Origin: Rhodopirellula europaea 6C
Lineage (GTDB): Bacteria > Planctomycetota > Planctomycetia > Pirellulales > Pirellulaceae
Direction: 5' to 3'
Assembly: GCF_000338295.1 (NCBI RefSeq)
Contig: NZ_ANMO01000006.1
Location: 1-64,000 of the forward strand
DNA: 64,000 nucleotides
Shown in pieces: positions 27,047 to 49,018 of the stretch (position 1 is the stretch's first letter; the number at the start of each line of letters is the position of its first letter). Below the pieces are notes generated by a model, which was given only the letters and a program-made list of their open reading frames with translations, was not told the DNA's origin and did not search any database. The position numbers and the translations under genes are program-made.

Positions 27047-27937
27047 CTACTTTTGCCGGTTCAGCCGCATCAAAGCGGCAAGCTCGACCAAGTGACGAAG
27101 TGAGTCACAATGAGCCGTGTATCGCAATCGCGGTCGCAGCTTGTCACATAGGGCTCGCCCGCCGATCAGCAATGGGACGTCTTCCCCTAGCGAATCGGCC
27201 AATTGGTTCTGAGCCGCGACAAACATCCCCGGTTCGCTGACCGAGGAAACGCTCATCCAAACCATTTGCGGGTCGTAATCATGAGCCGCTTGGACAAAGC
27301 TTTCCATTGGAAGGTCATTGCCGAGGCTGGTCGCGTTCCAACCAACTTCGCGAAGCGCTAACTCGACCAACATCGTTGGCAATTGATACGGATCCCCTTC
27401 CGGTGCACCACCGATCGCAATCGGAGCGGACTTGGGAGGTGAAGGGATCTCAGATCGCAGCTCGTAGATCAATCGCATCGCGATGTCACATCCACGACGT
27501 TCTTGGTAGACATCCAGCTGGTTGCAATCCCAGGCTTCGCCGAAACCGTGCATCGCATCGGTGATCAACGACTCCGCCGCTTCGCTTCGCGTGTGACCCG
27601 CCGCAACCTTCTTGGCCATCAACTCGCGACACGCCGCTTCGTCGCCTTCGGCCAATGAATCGCGAAAATTTTGGTTCAGCGGGTCTTCGTTCCCATCAAT
27701 GCGAGTCGTCCGGTCCGGCGACAGCTGAGGCAGGCCCAAAACCTCCGGCTTCAACAAACACCGGTCATTGGCGTGCACGAACGCCTGCAACGCGTCCAGG
27801 GTGATCCGGCGATGGCCGCCCGCTGTCTTGATGACCGGGATCGTTCCGTTGTCGCACCATCTCTTCACCGACGACTCGCTGACATCCATCGCCGCGGCGA
27901 CTTCTTTCGGTGAGAACTGGGGCTGACGAGCTGCCAC
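27047..27937 (-). CDS. CarH/LitR-like MerR-type regulator lacking B12 ligands
   Basis: 296 residues from the GTG at 27937; the frame stays open upstream to 28276 but that part is not regulator-like. Residues ~8-45 are a MerR-type winged helix (SPKEVAAAMDVSESSVKRWC, then NGTIPVIKTAGGHRRI). A helical cap of the B12-binding-2 type follows (~95-170), and a Rossmann-like B12-binding fold (~185-285, LVELALREVGWNATSLGNDL). CarH and LitR use cobalamin to repress light-induced genes. Here the cap E-H reads QERRG and the E/D-x-H-x-x-G motif reads GDPYQLP, so the histidine ligands are missing. Divergent from a sigma factor gene. Confidence 0.85.
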   Translation of the reverse strand: MAARQPQFSPKEVAAAMDVSESSVKRWCDNGTIPVIKTAGGHRRITLDALQAFVHANDRCLLKPEVLGLPQLSPDRTTRIDGNEDPLNQNFRDSLAEGDEAACRELMAKKVAAGHTRSEAAESLITDAMHGFGEAWDCNQLDVYQERRGCDIAMRLIYELRSEIPSPPKSAPIAIGGAPEGDPYQLPTMLVELALREVGWNATSLGNDLPMESFVQAAHDYDPQMVWMSVSSVSEPGMFVAAQNQLADSLGEDVPLLIGGRALCDKLRPRLRYTAHCDSLRHLVELAALMRLNRQK

Positions 27938-27970
27938 GAGACACGTTGGGATGAGAGAAGAGAAACGAGG

Positions 27971-28057
27971 TGAACGTTTTAAAGAACGATGTGAACGTTT
28001 TAAACGCCTCGGTTGAACGTTTCCAGTGTAATCGGTCGACAATGGTGGACGTTTTCC
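27971..28057 (-). promoter_or_regulatory. Direct-repeat operator cluster upstream of regulator
   Basis: TGAACGTTTTAAA at 27971-27983 and again, identical, at 27992-28004; then TGAACGTTT at 28014-28022 and TGGACGTTTTCC at 28046-28057. All have the same orientation. They lie 34-120 bases upstream of the regulator start and fit autoregulation. Confidence 0.65.
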
Positions 28058-28186
28058 GCTCACTGCAAGCTCGGAAAATGATCGATTACCGCTCATTTCC
28101 TTTCTAATTCGCGGCTTGGAAAAACAATGAATTCTCAGTTCGATGCGAATTTCGCTTGCAATCGGTTCCACGGGGCGATATACCAA

Positions 28187-28224
28187 TGGACGTTCTGAAC
28201 GTTTTGAAAGACCAAAACGTTCAC
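28187..28224 (+). promoter_or_regulatory. Inverted-repeat operator upstream of sigma factor
   Basis: TGAACGTTTT at 28196-28205 and AAAACGTTCA at 28214-28223 form a perfect 10-bp inverted repeat with an 8-base spacer. A partial box TGGACGTTC starts nine bases before it at 28187. The site lies ~175 bases upstream of the sigma factor ATG, on the side expected for regulating it. Confidence 0.65.
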
Positions 28225-28399
28225 GCAAGTGCATCATTCGGCACATCAATTGCGGAACTCGCGTCTCCATGTCCATTGGGTTGGAAGAGGAAGTTGACTC
28301 GAATTTGCCGTTTGGTGACTTCCGTCGTCGACACCTCCCTGACTGACCCTGCGATTCAGCTATCAGCCATCACGCCCAGCCATTCGAGAAGGTCGAAAA

Positions 28400-29422
28400 A
28401 TGCCAACCCTCACCGCTTCCACCGTTCCTGCCCGCCGCCCCGCTTGGCTCAATTGTTCGGAATTGGATCAGGCGATGGCTGAGGTTCAGCCACTGTTGAC
28501 GGACATCTCAGGCGAGGATCATGCCTCGCTGCGAAAACTGACCAAACGCCGGCTGCGTCAGGAGATCGACTTTATCTCCAACGAAAAGTTCACATCGGTC
28601 CGAGAAGGAAAACGGATCTTCTCCGAGTCGCTGGGCTTGGCTCCTCGCGAAACCGCACTCGGAATTGCCACGATTCGTCGCAGCGGAGTCGACCTGCCGA
28701 TCCACTTGGGAAGATTGTGTGAAGCACCTCTGCTCAAACCCGAACAAGAGAAGATGTTGTTCGAGCGGATGAACTACCTTCTGCAACAGGCTGCAATTCA
28801 TCGCAGCGTCCTGAATCCCGAGCGTCCTTCGCGACACCGATTGGAATTGATCGAGCTGTTCGTGGCTCTGGCCGATTGGCACCGCGATCGAATTGTTGAG
28901 GCCAACTTGCGGCTCGTGTTCTCGATCGTCAAGAAGTTCGTCAATCCAAACAACACGTTCGATGATTTGCTGAGCGACGGAATCGTGGCGTTGATTCGCG
29001 CGGTCGAAAAGTTCGACTTCGATCGTGGTTTCCGATTCAGCACCTACGCGACTCAGGTCGTCCGACGCAATTCGTACCGAACCGTTGTGTTAAAACAACA
29101 AGAACGTCAAAAGGTCCAAGGGGGGCTGCAGGACATGGATATCGATGTCAGTGAGGAAGAACGTTCTTCCGCGATCAGCGAAAAACGATGGCACGAATTG
29201 CGAAGTCGTCTCAGCGTGATGCTGGGCGATTTGGATCGTCGCGAAAAGTTCATCATTCGTGCTCGGTTCTCGCTCGGACCTCACCGCAAAGTTCACACGT
29301 TGCAGTCGCTCGCCGATCGGTTGGGTGTCTCCAAAGAACGAGTTCGTCAACTCGAACGCCGTGCGATGGACAAACTCCGTGCGATGGCAGGTGACGTTCA
29401 GTTGGCAGAGTTGGAAGCGTAG
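28400..29422 (+). CDS. RNA polymerase sigma-70 family factor
   Basis: 340 residues. Conserved region 1.2-like sequence near residues 113-130; region 2 at ~172-232 (VEANLRLVFSIVKKFVNPNN, DDLLSDGIVALIRAVEKFDF, FRFSTYATQVVRRNSYR); region 4 near the end (LQSLADRLGVSKERVRQLER). Region 3 appears short. It is a group 2/3 sigma-70 rather than an ECF factor. In CarH/LitR loci of other bacteria a sigma factor is often the first light-induced gene; by analogy this one could direct the downstream genes. It ends six bases before the next gene. Confidence 0.85.
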   Translation: MPTLTASTVPARRPAWLNCSELDQAMAEVQPLLTDISGEDHASLRKLTKRRLRQEIDFISNEKFTSVREGKRIFSESLGLAPRETALGIATIRRSGVDLPIHLGRLCEAPLLKPEQEKMLFERMNYLLQQAAIHRSVLNPERPSRHRLELIELFVALADWHRDRIVEANLRLVFSIVKKFVNPNNTFDDLLSDGIVALIRAVEKFDFDRGFRFSTYATQVVRRNSYRTVVLKQQERQKVQGGLQDMDIDVSEEERSSAISEKRWHELRSRLSVMLGDLDRREKFIIRARFSLGPHRKVHTLQSLADRLGVSKERVRQLERRAMDKLRAMAGDVQLAELEA

Positions 29423-29428
29423 GTTCCG

Positions 29429-30940
29429 GTGGCATCAAACTCCGATCACACTTCTCATTCTTCCAACACAGTCTCATCCACGGACGAATCGGCATCGTCC
29501 GAAAGTGGCGGGCGCCCCGAGCTGCCCGAGGAATGTCGATCTCAACCCGGAACGGATCACTACGCGGCAACGGTTGAATTGCCGGTCAGCATCGACGAAG
29601 CGTTCGCGTATCACGAACGCCCCGGTTGTCTGAACCGATTGACTCCGCCTTGGGAAAGCGTCCAAGTCGAACATTCCGATCAGTCGCTGGCACCGGGAAG
29701 CCGGGTCGTTCTCAAGACAAAGATCGCGGGCATCCCAGTGCGATGGAAAGCTCGCCACGTCTGGTACGATCCACCTCATGGCTTTGCCGACGTACAAGAC
29801 TCCGGTCCGTTCGCACGTTGGGCTCACCAGCATCTTTTCGAGTCGCTCGATTCCAACCGATCCCAGCTCACCGACGCGATCGAGTACAAATTGCCTGCGG
29901 GCGTTGCGGGAAAGGTGTTTGGTAGCGGCAAGGCTCGCCGAACCATCGAAGCAATGTTTGCCTATCGCCACCGCGTCACCCAGGATGATTTGCAGATGAT
30001 GGCTGACTACCCGATGAGTCCCAAGACGATCGCCGTGTCCGGTTCAAGCGGACTAGTGGGCGATGCTCTTTGCACGACGCTGACGTTGCTCGGACACAAA
30101 GTCATGACGATCACTCGAGGCGATCACGGTGACGAGGGCTCCATCGCCGCATGGGGTGATCCGGCTGAGTTTGAGAAATTCGAATCAGTCGACGTGGTTG
30201 TTCATTTGGCTGGTAAGAGCATTGCGAGCAAGCGGTGGACGCCCGAATTGAAAGAACAAATTCGCGAAAGTCGAGTGGAGAAGACTCAGGCTCTTTGCGA
30301 GGGATTGGCCAAGTTGCAAACGAAGCCGCCCGTGCTGATCTGTGCATCGGCAACCGGGATCTACGGCAATCGTGGCGAAGAAGTTTTGACCGAGACATCC
30401 CCTGATGGCGACGACTTCCTGGCTGATGTCGCTCGGCCGTGGGAAGACGCCTGCCAGCCCGCCCGAGAAGCTGGCATTCGAGTCGTGAACACACGGTTCG
30501 GCATCGTACTGTCACCGAAGGGCGGCGCACTGCAACAGATGCTGCTGCCGGCAAAAATGATGGGCGGCAAATTGGGGAGCGGCAGGCAATGGTGGTCTTG
30601 GATCGCACTGGATGACGTCGTCGGAGCGATCGTTCATTGCATTCAAAAGGAAGAGACCAACGGCCCGGTGAACTTCGTTTCGCCCGAACCCATTCAAAAC
30701 CGCGAATTCGCGAAAGTGCTGGGTGAGGTTCTTAACCGACCTGCGCTGTTCCCGGCCCCGGCTTTTGCTCTTCGTCTGGCTTTGGGTGAGATGGCCGACT
30801 CGTTGTTGCTGGCCAGTTCGCGAGCGGTGCCCGAGCAGTTGCAGCAAACTGGATACAAGTTCCGCTTCACCGATTTGAAGGAATGCTTACGAACACTTTT
30901 GGGCAAAGATCTCAAACCGGCGACGCAGGCAACCGCATGA
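29429..30940 (+). CDS. SRPBCC domain fused to TIGR01777 epimerase-like protein
   Basis: 503 residues, GTG start six bases after the sigma factor. Residues ~40-185 are a START/SRPBCC ligand-binding domain (ATVELPVSIDEAFAYHERPG). From ~195 on is an SDR-type NAD(P)-binding domain of the TIGR01777/DUF1731 family (IAVSGSSGLVGDALCTTLTL, VVVHLAGKSIASKRWTPELK, GIRVVNTRFGIVLSPKGGAL). Proteins of this family occur in light-responsive LitR/CarH regulons elsewhere and in general metabolism as YfcH; the substrate is unknown. Its stop overlaps the next gene (ATGA), so the two are coupled. Confidence 0.88.
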   Translation: MASNSDHTSHSSNTVSSTDESASSESGGRPELPEECRSQPGTDHYAATVELPVSIDEAFAYHERPGCLNRLTPPWESVQVEHSDQSLAPGSRVVLKTKIAGIPVRWKARHVWYDPPHGFADVQDSGPFARWAHQHLFESLDSNRSQLTDAIEYKLPAGVAGKVFGSGKARRTIEAMFAYRHRVTQDDLQMMADYPMSPKTIAVSGSSGLVGDALCTTLTLLGHKVMTITRGDHGDEGSIAAWGDPAEFEKFESVDVVVHLAGKSIASKRWTPELKEQIRESRVEKTQALCEGLAKLQTKPPVLICASATGIYGNRGEEVLTETSPDGDDFLADVARPWEDACQPAREAGIRVVNTRFGIVLSPKGGALQQMLLPAKMMGGKLGSGRQWWSWIALDDVVGAIVHCIQKEETNGPVNFVSPEPIQNREFAKVLGEVLNRPALFPAPAFALRLALGEMADSLLLASSRAVPEQLQQTGYKFRFTDLKECLRTLLGKDLKPATQATA

Positions 30941-31386
30941 ACGCGAATCTCTTGTTGCTGCTCAATGCATTGTCGACCTGGTACATGGTCGGGTTGATTT
31001 GGATGGTTCAAATCGTTCACTACAAGATGTTCGACCGCGTCGGGGAAGATGTCTTCGCTCGCTACGCAACGGATCACGCTCGGTTGATCACGCCGATCGT
31101 CGCCGTCCCGATGTTGATTGAAATCGCCACCGCCGCCGGATTGCTGATGACTCGCCCGGGGAACATCTCGTTCACCTGGGCCGCGGTGGGAATTGCTTTG
31201 CTGATTGTGATTTGGGTCAGCACCGCTGCCTTGCAAGTTCCGGCACACGGAAAGCTGGCATCGGGTTTTCAGCCGAACGTTTATTCCACATTGGTGACAA
31301 CCAATTGGATTCGCACGATCGCCTGGTCCATACGTGGCTTGTTGGTCGGTTGGGCTTTGTGGACGCTGCTGCCGACCAAGGTTTAG
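30937..31386 (+). CDS. Four-helix membrane protein
   Basis: 149 residues from the ATG at 30937, overlapping the preceding stop by four bases. Four membrane segments: LLLLLNALSTWYMVGLIWMV, MLIEIATAAGLLMT, WAAVGIALLIVIWVSTAAL, IAWSIRGLLVGWALWTLL. Conserved-looking polar residues lie in helix 1/loop (QIVHYKMFDRVG) and before helix 4 (NWIRT). Some members of this type are linked to LitR/SDR clusters. Function unknown; the third gene of the sigma-led operon. Confidence 0.75.
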   Translation: MNANLLLLLNALSTWYMVGLIWMVQIVHYKMFDRVGEDVFARYATDHARLITPIVAVPMLIEIATAAGLLMTRPGNISFTWAAVGIALLIVIWVSTAALQVPAHGKLASGFQPNVYSTLVTTNWIRTIAWSIRGLLVGWALWTLLPTKV

Positions 31387-33199: not shown

Positions 33200-34159
33200 T
33201 CACCAACCCAGTACGTGAGCAAACACCAGTGGTGCACAGATCGTTGCGTCGCTTTGGATCATGAACTTGGGCGAGTCCGCATCGATCTTGTACCACGTGA
33301 TCTTTTCGTTTGGCACGGCTCCGCTGTAACCACCGTAGCTGGTCGTTGCATCGCTGATTTGGCAGAAGTAGCCCCACAACGGGATGTCGAGCTTCAGGTC
33401 CTGAATCAACATCGGAACGACACAGATGGGGAAGTCGCCCGCGATTCCGCCGCCGATCTGAAAGAACCCGATCGGATCTTTCATTGTCGCTTGGTACCAC
33501 TGAGCCAACTGCTGCATTTGTTTCGTGCCGGTGGCGTAAGCACCATGGCCAGGCACGCTGCCGTCGATGACATGGGCAGTGTAGATATTGCCCAAAGTTG
33601 AGTCTTCAAAGCCCGGTGTAAAAACCGGAATCCCAGCATCCTTTGCCGCCGCGACCCAACTGTTTTCGCGGGGAACCTGGTAGTGCTGGACCAATCCCTC
33701 GTCGTCCAGAAGATCGAACATGTACTCGACCGGCATGCGAGCGGCGTTCTCGCCGGCCGCCTTTTGCCACATGGGCACCAATCGATCCTCTAGGTGTCGC
33801 ATGACCGTTTCGGGGATGCAAGTGTCGGTGACTCGGTTGAAGCCACGGTCTCGCAGAGCCACTTCGTCTTCGGCCGAAAGAGCTCGCCAGTTCTCGACGA
33901 TTTCGTATTCGTCATGAGCGACCAAGTTGAAGATGTCTTCTTCCAGGTTGGCCGCGGTGCAGGTGACGGCGTGTACCTTTCCCTTGCGAATCATTTCGGC
34001 AAGTGACAGCCCCAATTCGCCGGTGCTCATCGCACCTGCCAAGGTCACCATCATCTTGCCGCCACCATCAACGAATTCGCCGTACGACTTTGCCGACGCC
34101 AGCAGTTCACGCGCGTTGAAGTGTCGGAAATGCGTTTCCAAAAATTCCGTGACATTCAT
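33200..34159 (-). CDS. Deoxyhypusine synthase-like protein
   Basis: 319 residues. The DHS fold is visible: GGGKMMVTLAGAMSTGELGL, CTAANLEEDIFNLVAHDEYE, then the long block with GFFQIGGGIAGDFPICVVPM and the NAD/lysine region DATTSYGGYSGAVPNEKITW. Eukaryotic DHS modifies eIF5A; bacteria lack that target, and their homologues have been linked to homospermidine or related polyamine synthesis. Lysine in NEKITW may be the catalytic one. No polyamine genes are adjacent. I chose the ATG at 34159; the extra 15 residues from 34204 are unsupported. Confidence 0.85.
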   Translation of the reverse strand: MNVTEFLETHFRHFNARELLASAKSYGEFVDGGGKMMVTLAGAMSTGELGLSLAEMIRKGKVHAVTCTAANLEEDIFNLVAHDEYEIVENWRALSAEDEVALRDRGFNRVTDTCIPETVMRHLEDRLVPMWQKAAGENAARMPVEYMFDLLDDEGLVQHYQVPRENSWVAAAKDAGIPVFTPGFEDSTLGNIYTAHVIDGSVPGHGAYATGTKQMQQLAQWYQATMKDPIGFFQIGGGIAGDFPICVVPMLIQDLKLDIPLWGYFCQISDATTSYGGYSGAVPNEKITWYKIDADSPKFMIQSDATICAPLVFAHVLGW

Positions 34160-34461
34160 GACAGATCGGTAACCAATACGAAGGAGGGAAACACTGAAGT
34201 CCACGGTGGCATCGCGCGACCAATTCAGCCCCGAAAGCGCAATCAGCCGTCATTTTGCGGTACTTCGCAAAAAATAAACAATCGGCGATGGCGCCGAATC
34301 TTACCGTTCACTCGGCTCAGTGTCGTCAGGGGATCAATAGCAGTTTTGCTTCACGAAATCCGTTCGAACCGCCGTTGCAGTCAATGGAAGCACTAACCAA
34401 TTTAGATGCAAATTCTGAAACTCGAGCGAAACATTTTGCATCCCTTGCTGTTGGATCCACT
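34160..34461. other. Divergent intergenic region
   Basis: 302 bases between the deoxyhypusine-synthase-like gene and the leucine-rich-repeat gene. No supported frame other than the upstream extension of the latter (in-frame ATGs at 34255 and 34384). No hairpin noted. Confidence 0.4.
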
Positions 34462-48049: not shown

Positions 48050-49018
48050 GTGAACCCGTCATTGATCGCCGCCGGTTTCTTTTTTGCCGCGGTCTTGATT
48101 GCAATCGGTTACCTCCTCGGACGTCGACGCGCCAAAGTCGCGACGGCGATCCCGCAAGGACCGATCATCCAAGAGGACGAGCGTCAACGCATGCTGGGCT
48201 TGCTCGAAGGCCTGTCGCGTTGGACCAACGAGTACTCCGGCAACGTTTCGAACTACCAAAGCGAACTGGGCGAACTCAGTGACGCGATGCGGATCAGTCT
48301 GCAGCAGTCGCGATCCGGCGCCGCTCGCAATGGCAGGGCGAATGAAAATCAACAAGCCAGCGATGCGAGAATGGTGACGTTGATCAATCAGATCATGTCG
48401 ACGAACACCGAGTTGCAAACACGGTTGGAAGCCGCTGAGCAACAACTCGAAGAACAAACCGAACAAATCCAGTCCTACCTCACCGAAGCTCGCACGGACG
48501 GTCTGACAGGTCTGTTCAATCGACGAGCCTTCGACAAGAAACTCGACGAATTGTTCTCGGCCTACCGAGCCGGTGGCAAGTCGTTCACGTTGATTTTGAT
48601 GGACATCGATCACTTCAAGATGATCAACGATACACATGGTCACCCGATCGGCGACATCGTCTTACAACAGATCTCGCAACGACTCGGCCATGGAATGCAA
48701 GACGCCGAGATCGTGTCGCGATTCGGCGGCGAAGAATTCGCGATTCTGACGCATCTGCCGATTCGAGCCGCTGCCGACAAGGTCAACAAACTGCGAGACC
48801 GCATCGCCAACGAACCCGTCGATGCGGGGTCAACCGAGTTGCAAGTCACATTGAGCGTTGGACTGAGCACGCCACAAGAAGACTTGGTCATCGGTCCGAT
48901 TGTTCGTCGTGCCGACGAGGCCCTTTATTCGGCCAAGAACATGGGACGAAACCGCGTCTACTTCAACGACGGCAATGGTGCACAATTGATCAACGCTCCC
49001 GAAGTCATTCGCTCATAA
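48050..49018 (+). CDS. Membrane-anchored diguanylate cyclase (GGDEF)
   Basis: 322 residues from a GTG at 48050. An N-terminal membrane helix (LIAAGFFFAAVLIAIGYLLG), a coiled-coil-like linker (~90-150, ELQTRLEAAEQQLEEQTEQI), then a GGDEF domain: DGLTGLFNRRAFDKKLDELF, LILMDIDHFKMINDTHG, and the active site RFGGEEF. It makes c-di-GMP from two GTP. The inhibitory I-site R-x-x-D expected nine bases... residues before GGEEF reads QDAE, so product inhibition is probably absent. It lies 51 bases after glgC. Confidence 0.93.
   Translation: MNPSLIAAGFFFAAVLIAIGYLLGRRRAKVATAIPQGPIIQEDERQRMLGLLEGLSRWTNEYSGNVSNYQSELGELSDAMRISLQQSRSGAARNGRANENQQASDARMVTLINQIMSTNTELQTRLEAAEQQLEEQTEQIQSYLTEARTDGLTGLFNRRAFDKKLDELFSAYRAGGKSFTLILMDIDHFKMINDTHGHPIGDIVLQQISQRLGHGMQDAEIVSRFGGEEFAILTHLPIRAAADKVNKLRDRIANEPVDAGSTELQVTLSVGLSTPQEDLVIGPIVRRADEALYSAKNMGRNRVYFNDGNGAQLINAPEVIRS

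Follow-up and report, generated by a model that had tools for sequence, protein, structure and literature searches.

The window analysed here is a 64,000-nucleotide stretch of Rhodopirellula europaea 6C (contig NZ_ANMO01000006.1, positions 1 to 64,000), taken from a 7.19-Mb draft genome of 273 contigs whose closest named relatives are Pirellulaceae. Positions 27,047 to 31,386 hold a MerR-type regulator with the fold of CarH and LitR, the B12 light-sensor fold, in which both cobalamin-ligand histidines are replaced. As the initial annotation had it, the regulator is divergent from a sigma factor gene, which an SRPBCC-TIGR01777 gene follows:

27047..27937, minus strand: MerR/CarH-fold regulator gene, ~296 amino acids, inferred GTG start
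28400..29422, plus strand: sigma-70 family sigma factor, regions 2 and 4 (Pfam, NCBIfam), divergent from the regulator
29429..30940, plus strand: SRPBCC-TIGR01777 fusion with Polyketide_cyc, Epimerase and DUF1731 (Pfam, NCBIfam; TIGR01777 at 1.3e-96)
30937..31386, plus strand: membrane protein with conserved His; UPF0093/HemJ match under the cut-off (0.021; 0.0018 for its relative at locus L035)

The regulator start was placed at the GTG at 27937 rather than at 28276, since similarity to relatives begins there in the alignment and VAARQPQFSPK is kept in close relatives. The listed 409-amino-acid open reading frame from 28276 thus overshoots the gene, and positions 27938-28399 hold promoter and operator sequences.

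The domain order of the regulator is helix-turn-helix (HTH), B12-binding_2, B12-binding. In Pfam, HTH_17 matched at 1.9e-9, B12-binding_2 at 2.3e-6 (above the cut-off) and B12-binding at 6.4e-7, its 29.7 bits falling slightly below the cut-off of 32.1 (33.4 bits when scored with neighbours). The NCBIfam CarH model gave 8.4e-11 and 41.7 bits and did not reach its cut-off of 400, which is uninformative here (none of the phylum's 294 genomes reaches it). The HTH matched HTH_BldC at 2.5e-9 (36.8 bits, under the cut-off of 77). Across the source genome the CarH model had two matches (best 1.1e-10) and PF02310 three, the other two in frames of 1310 and 465 amino acids. An AlphaFold model of the regulator, made with 69 sequences from the window and the scan described below, reached a pLDDT of 93.8 and a pTM of 0.78. 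Its top Foldseek match was TtCarH (5c8d, 5.2e-14; whole-chain root-mean-square deviation (rmsd) 11.3, the domains being differently set), followed by CtMerR of Chloracidobacterium thermophilum (8jbs; TMt 0.81-0.85, rmsd 2.0-2.2) and then photocobilins. CtMerR 8jbs was also the best sequence match in the PDB (profile E 4.5e-54). The CarH/LitR domain order read initially from the letters is therefore borne out by Pfam, AlphaFold and Foldseek, and the predicted structure has the CarH fold.

Replacement of the ligand histidines and the cavity around them

The residues that set the regulator apart are the following.

27497..27502, minus strand: Glu-Arg where CarH has Glu-His (E141-H142 in TtCarH); ER in 80/80 scanned loci
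27386..27388, minus strand: Tyr in the column of the lower axial His (H177 in TtCarH, H204 in CtMerR); Y in 79/80 scanned loci, F in 1/80
27257..27259, minus strand: Trp two residues ahead of the SxS motif; W in 80/80 scanned loci
27524..27526, minus strand: family-specific Cys 1, two residues past the pocket Trp; 99/114 ER rows, 0/37 canonical
27488..27490, minus strand: family-specific Cys 2, four residues past the Glu; 108/114 ER rows, 0/37 canonical
27107..27109, minus strand: family-specific Cys 3, in a CD motif near the C terminus; 108/114 ER rows, 0/37 canonical

The cap pair of the regulator is E-R and its ligand loop reads EGDPYQLP. Both the E-H and the lower-His columns align without gaps with CtMerR (8jbs), and the Tyr column falls on the His present there in MetH and in the photocobilin SasPcob. 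ER with Y was found in 30/30 rows of a first alignment, the window's own row counted, and in 30 rows of a wider set of 33, the exceptions being L048 (EH with Y), L054 (ER with S) and L064 (EH with S). A scan of the genome collection with one HTH peptide pattern then gave 228 loci, the best 80 of which, from organisms overlapping the first set, carry Glu in 80/80, Arg in 80/80, Tyr in 79/80 (one Phe) and the Trp of GxxW in 80/80. This count, in contrast to those for the canonical (E-H-H) and ER row groups, is not preset by definition: the groups were defined by E, H or R, and H or Y, so that these columns are 100% by construction. The exchange of the Glu-His pair and of the lower His thus typifies a widespread subfamily rather than one odd gene. 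Chance or a sequencing artefact was rejected because the replacements recur across 80 loci, and a decayed gene because the frames are open and the columns strongly conserved.

No conserved candidate for a substitute lower-ligand His was found in the 112 rows with ER and Tyr. The sole His present in more than 60% of these rows lies in the HTH; the next-best His column (59%) is in the helical cap, where the window's regulator has Tyr. The claims that the cap reads ER, that the loop lacks its His and that the canonical ligands are gone, without another conserved His at the lower position, have therefore all held.

The remainder of the cavity is not degenerate. GxxW, GxxxP and GG are invariant in canonical and E-R rows alike and present in 80/80 scanned loci. 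The Trp ahead of SxS is the greatest side-chain gain found in the C-terminal domain of the ER family: the column is W in 113/114 ER rows, whereas 27/37 canonical rows have A or G there and 1/37 has W; among known proteins, Thermus thermophilus MetH has Gly, SasPcob Ala and CtMerR Cys. In MetH structures the strand end bearing this position presumably lines the nucleotide-tail pocket, so that the nucleotide tail would be expected to fit badly beside a Trp. All three cysteines occur jointly in 93/114 ER rows and 68/80 scanned loci, in contrast to 0/37 canonical rows, where the column of Cys 2 is Ser or Thr in 36/37; the canonical rows are mostly top CarH scorers and hence enriched for canonical members. 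Among the eight E-H rows without the lower His none has all three cysteines and one has two. The cobalamin cavity therefore looks rebuilt rather than decayed, with the Trp and the cysteines placed in it by alignment and their contribution to its lining likewise deduced. The exchange of the loop Gly for Pro or Ala (DxYxxP) had been considered as proof of lost B12 binding and was dropped, since the B12 binders CtMerR (Ala) and SasPcob (Pro) share it.

The order of these changes was examined in a tree of 99 of the 163 aligned rows, whose bootstrap had not settled. Of the 62 tree rows lacking the lower His, 58 formed one clade (support 95/87; inner nodes moderately supported at 94/83, 92/51 and 81/91), with E-H rows carrying Tyr, Phe, Gly or Ser near its base and E-R rows with Tyr as its bulk. 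Canonical E-H-H relatives (37/163 rows) came mostly from other families of the phylum. Loss of the His looks ancestral to one large clade, and because the E-H rows with a non-His lower residue sit near its base, the lower ligand was probably replaced before the cap His. The Trp may be older than the loss of the His, as it is already found in 7/8 E-H rows without the lower His and, among the paralogue rows listed, in three members (L199, L200 and L203) of a second, diverged paralogue, L199-L203, from genomes G023, G010, G012, G011 and G003. Of these paralogues, L199 keeps E-H and the lower His, while L200-L203, from close relatives, have Asp at the lower-ligand column and ER, ER, TQ and EK in the cap. 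L200-L203 group with L199 in the tree, and the His was accordingly lost at least twice.

Promoter, candidate operator and neighbouring genes

The region between the regulator and the sigma gene carries the following elements.

28156..28184, plus strand: sigma-70-like promoter of the sigma gene, TTGCAA-N17-TATACC, read directly
28189..28224, plus strand: putative sigma-side operator of four 9-bp units, GACGTTCTG AACGTTTTG AAAGACCAA AACGTTCAC, over the expected transcription start
27970..28023, plus strand: candidate half-sites TGAACGTTT at the regulator's own promoter, at 27971, 27992 and 28014

CTTG[CT] followed by TATA at the same spacing was present in 11/13 intergenic regions. The operator units start at 28189, 28198, 28207 and 28216, and the third (AAAGACCAA) is degenerate. 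The 28-bp operator core has a single site in the source genome at up to 3 mismatches, and a wider regulon acting through this operator was accordingly dropped. All 13 close genomes that have the regulator carry the core between it and the sigma gene: six of them without a mismatch, five with 1, one with 2 and one with 3 (G025, a weak case). Across 15 genomes, 11 further non-cognate core sites were found at 2-3 mismatches, one of them in the regulator-less G006, compared with 6 for a reversed control pattern. The regulator-less G007 has zero core sites; it keeps the sigma gene, with no AACGTT in the 500 bases upstream. In G006 a close sigma ortholog is missing, the best match being at 2.4e-41.

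After removal of six redundant regions from the 80, AACGTT was found in 48 of the remaining 74 upstream regions, where the Markov model gave a mean of 14.2 (maximum 23), and in 24/49 of the more distant ones against a mean of 8.45 (maximum 14). It ranked first among palindromes, in 48 regions as against 18 for the runner-up. AACGTT pairs within 45 bases of each other were spaced by 9, 18 or 27 in 20/32 cases. An inverted-repeat operator was therefore replaced by tandem 9-bp units, AACGTT itself being palindromic. BldC offers a parallel in the part of PMC5859096 available: each protomer sits on one 9-bp direct repeat, head to tail. Because three half-sites lie at the regulator's own promoter, the arrangement also suggests autoregulation. 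In five genomes with the SRPBCC gene apart from the sigma gene, AACGTT occurred once in the 600 bases upstream (L229, 451 bases before the match); at L232 it was found once, at the start of the SRPBCC match itself.

A sigma gene was divergent within 1.5 kb in 55/74 loci having at least 1.5 kb upstream, and the SRPBCC-TIGR01777 gene was also present in 29/65 loci with 4 kb upstream. At L063 (G057:C17, about 48357-48633) a regulator fragment adjoins a divergent sigma gene, with an intact second copy on C11, which suggests that the repressor was lost at that locus.

Genes of UfaD, UfaO and UfaM type (FAD oxidase, DUF1365 and CMAS, UfaM presumably being CMAS-like) lie near the regulator in 14/80 loci, or in 6/35 of those having more than 8 kb on both sides, and directly behind the sigma gene in five (L117, L126, L129, L137 and L146), one set of these genes having been run through Pfam. 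In Rhodobacter sphaeroides, the available part of PMC7380195 assigns the making of furan fatty acids to UfaM, the FAD-binding UfaD and the DUF1365 protein UfaO. In Pseudomonas, ufaM is light-induced together with class II LitR genes (PMC9758184, available portion). These neighbours in relatives hint at a photo-oxidative role. Of the 25 genomes with DUF1365, 8 have it no more than about 4 kb away from the regulator, going by the positions listed. At G006:C9, G007:C2, G018:C1 and G030:C4 the DUF1365 gene is paired, at a distance of about 1.7-1.8 kb and in divergent orientation, with a diverged sigma paralogue, and no regulator match is listed alongside; for this reason the lipid genes may go with the kind of sigma factor more than with the regulator. 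In distant relatives (L036, L037, L048, L049, L057, L058 and L059) a cluster of fasciclin-type proteins stands beside the regulator, separating it from the sigma gene in L036 and L058; Pfam supports the members in L036 and L049. PQQ-propeller genes adjoin the regulator in some relatives.

The last gene of the operon had been annotated as a four-helix membrane protein in an overlapping frame. The overlap stands, with a start most likely at 30937, in an ATGA shared with the SRPBCC-TIGR01777 gene, rather than at 30883; four helices are plausible, and the hydropathy profile shows three clear peaks. Its conserved His residues, shared with L035, L043 and L053, occur as VHY and PxH, and a heme-binding role is conceivable. 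After the operon, on the same strand, lies a nucleoside-hydrolase-like gene (PF01156, 31529-32614). A deoxyhypusine synthase-like gene (PF01916, 9.1e-40; 33200-34204, minus strand) is also present in this bacterial window.

Signals that the regulator may sense

From these features we infer, with about an even chance of being right, an autoregulated repressor of a sigma-led envelope operon that has abandoned His-on adenosylcobalamin and senses another signal. The BldC/CarH-type DNA-binding domain would sit on the 9-bp repeats over the divergent operon start and would also occupy the related half-sites at its own promoter, until a signal frees it from DNA. The sigma factor, the SRPBCC-TIGR01777 protein and the membrane protein would then carry the envelope response, whose most likely trigger is light or photo-oxidative damage. 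The rebuilt cavity (cobalt-ligand His to Tyr, adenosyl-side His to Arg, the Trp and the three Cys) would sense a signal other than adenosylcobalamin, perhaps through thiols; it is the ligand exchanges taken with the Trp and the cysteines that suggest His-on adenosylcobalamin is no longer used. The initial annotation had proposed a non-adenosylcobalamin signal or a light response with another chromophore. Conservation of the replacements throughout the family speaks for a sensor with another signal rather than for decay, in line with the former; the invariant GxxW, Glu, GxxxP and GG leave the exclusion of corrinoid less certain. More specifically, and only tentatively, the cavity of this widespread planctomycete CarH branch could now, with its Trp, Tyr and Arg and two or three reactive Cys, directly sense photo-oxidative damage (a thiol, a metal or a lipid-derived electrophile), with a Tyr-ligated corrinoid photosensor as the sibling of that proposal. 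Between thiol sensing, an altered corrinoid and a partner protein, we consider thiol sensing somewhat the most likely.

Several observations weigh against the non-adenosylcobalamin repressor as proposed. Some B12 proteins bind the cofactor without a protein His. The sequence signature kept by the regulator (GxxW, Glu, GxxxP, GG) is that of cobalamin binders, and the paralogue L199 holds the Trp and the lower His together, so that the Trp alone is no bar to corrinoid. At the DNA level, the own-promoter half-sites are spaced by 21 and 22, which are not multiples of 9, and AACGTT ranks eighth among 6-mers by its ratio to random windows, after AT-rich TATA-like words. In 19/74 loci no divergent sigma gene lies within 1.5 kb. 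As to the photo-oxidative link, no DUF1365 (UfaO-type) gene was found in the source genome, and its two CMAS matches score modestly, at 50.8 and 29.3 bits with the cut-off at 27 (the L034 protein reaches 288). DUF1365 is present in 25/60 genomes, namely 20/41 with a regulator match and 5/19 without, and in the source genus only in G006 and G007, both regulator-less.

It is rather unlikely, in our estimate, that the regulator still binds a corrinoid, with Tyr or no lower ligand, as a cobalamin photosensor of altered chemistry. In its favour, GxxW, GxxxP and GG are retained at 100% in both row groups, and the nearest solved relative, CtMerR, is a proven adenosylcobalamin photoreceptor (PMC11796333, available part). 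The same portion of that paper shows CtMerR and photocobilins to be already unlike TtCarH at the upper-face His132 (Arg, Gln, Tyr), and it describes no Tyr lower ligand. The lower His and the cap EH are lost across the scanned family, however, a Trp stands where MetH has Gly, SasPcob Ala and CtMerR Cys, beside the motif that we take to line the nucleotide-tail pocket, and the cysteines of the ER family are conserved.

A second possibility is that the regulator's domain senses nothing and that the repressor is bound, under illumination, by a BLUF or LOV flavin photoreceptor encoded separately, for which PmSB-LOV acting on PmlR2 is a precedent (PMC9758184, available portion) and BluF acting on BluR a named parallel. 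The source genome does encode a stand-alone short BLUF protein of 141 amino acids (L218, G000:C165:3282-3563), and all 14 BLUF-bearing genomes among the 60 have a regulator match (hypergeometric 0.002, uncorrected for kinship, 11 being of one genus). Its gene lies on a different contig from the regulator, though, and BLUF is missing from 27 of the 41 genomes with a regulator match (one of these, G036, being a weak match). The strict LOV motif was found in 15/60 genomes, 13/41 with a regulator match and 2/19 without; in the source genome this strict form, variant motifs not having been sought, occurs on contigs C147 and C246 only and not on the window's C6. Co-occurrence thus does not bear out a BLUF or LOV partner for the family as a whole, and docking of a partner would leave the fixed cavity residues and cysteines unexplained. 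We regard such a partner as unlikely; as no external photoreceptor follows the family, a sensor of the regulator's own is favoured. The BLUF gene L218 adjoins a frame that is TolC-like by eye, and its product is a possible blue-light partner in the genus. A bilin chromophore was also set aside as unlikely, since Heme_oxygenase (PF01126) is absent from 58/60 genomes including the source, other heme-degrading families not having been sought.

The operon could also be an ordinary envelope-stress operon unrelated to light, its regulator sensing a metal or a metabolite. Pfam searches of 19 window open reading frames turned up neither a photolyase nor a carotenoid gene, fasciclin and PQQ-propeller genes stand beside some relatives, and the missing DUF1365 gene strengthens this alternative as it weakens the photo-oxidative one. 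Set against it are the Ufa-type genes near the regulator in 14/80 loci and the light-sensing ancestry of the fold, and we judge it rather improbable. The light-regulon reading of the initial annotation is thus supported by association, through the Ufa-type neighbours of relatives, and undercut by the gene content of this genome and window.

Relation to known systems

CtMerR (8jbs/8jbt), a light-responsive cobalamin-binding protein, shares with the regulator the fold, the HTH, GxxW, Glu and GxxxP. It differs in having E-H and the lower His204 and in binding adenosylcobalamin (PMC11796333, available part), where the regulator has E-R with Tyr, the Trp and three Cys. Domain order and fold are likewise common to CarH and class I LitR (TtCarH 5c8d), both His being replaced in the regulator. 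CarH operators consist of 11-bp repeats, compared with the 9-bp units of the candidate operator here. Among the features that mark class I LitR, GxxW, GxxxP and the fold are present in the regulator, whereas the lower His of (E/D)xHxxG and the cap EH are not. Class II LitR (PplR, PmlR2) is, in the available portion of PMC9758184, a LitR-family repressor presumed B12-free, with ufaM light-induced alongside. Unlike the regulator, which has a full and constrained Rossmann domain, class II is described as retaining only the four-helix B12-binding_2, and it pairs with an adjacent short LOV gene, while the strict LOV motif is missing from the regulator's contig. The regulator is a descendant of the CarH/LitR group and would work like a CarH/LitR repressor; it lacks two of the class I marks and also the loss that defines class II.

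More distant likenesses concern DNA binding and target genes. BldC resembles the regulator, so far as sequence alone tells, in its HTH family (a match under the cut-off) and its 9-bp repeat unit, but consists of a winged helix-turn-helix domain only, without the sensing domain that the regulator has. BluR/MlrA, also of MerR type, has a B12-like domain that is said to bind no B12. ChrR is a zinc anti-sigma factor, whereas the regulator here would be a MerR-type repressor. Loci related to the window's have the same kinds of genes (DUF1365, FAD oxidase, CMAS) near the regulator or sigma gene as the ChrR-controlled UfaMDO system of R. sphaeroides (PMC7380195, available part), DUF1365 being missing from the source genome itself. 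Photocobilins combine B12 with a bilin-binding globin-like domain; the regulator has only HTH and B12 domains in Pfam, and Heme_oxygenase is absent from the genome.

No described planctomycete CarH/LitR or MerR plus B12-binding light regulator was found in the open-licence literature, in agreement with the remark of the initial annotation that the combination had not been seen before; that remark understates the case, since a widespread subfamily is involved. The family forms a natural series, from EHH through EH with Tyr, Phe, Gly or Ser to ER with Tyr and Cys, of a cofactor photoreceptor that loses or swaps its cofactor while the fold is kept. With it, the question whether a B12 light-sensor fold can work in the absence of cobalamin becomes testable, and many planctomycetes may have in it a switch of light or photo-oxidative type. 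If the cysteines are indeed the sensor, a cofactor photoreceptor would have been turned into a stress sensor that kept the same kind of target genes.

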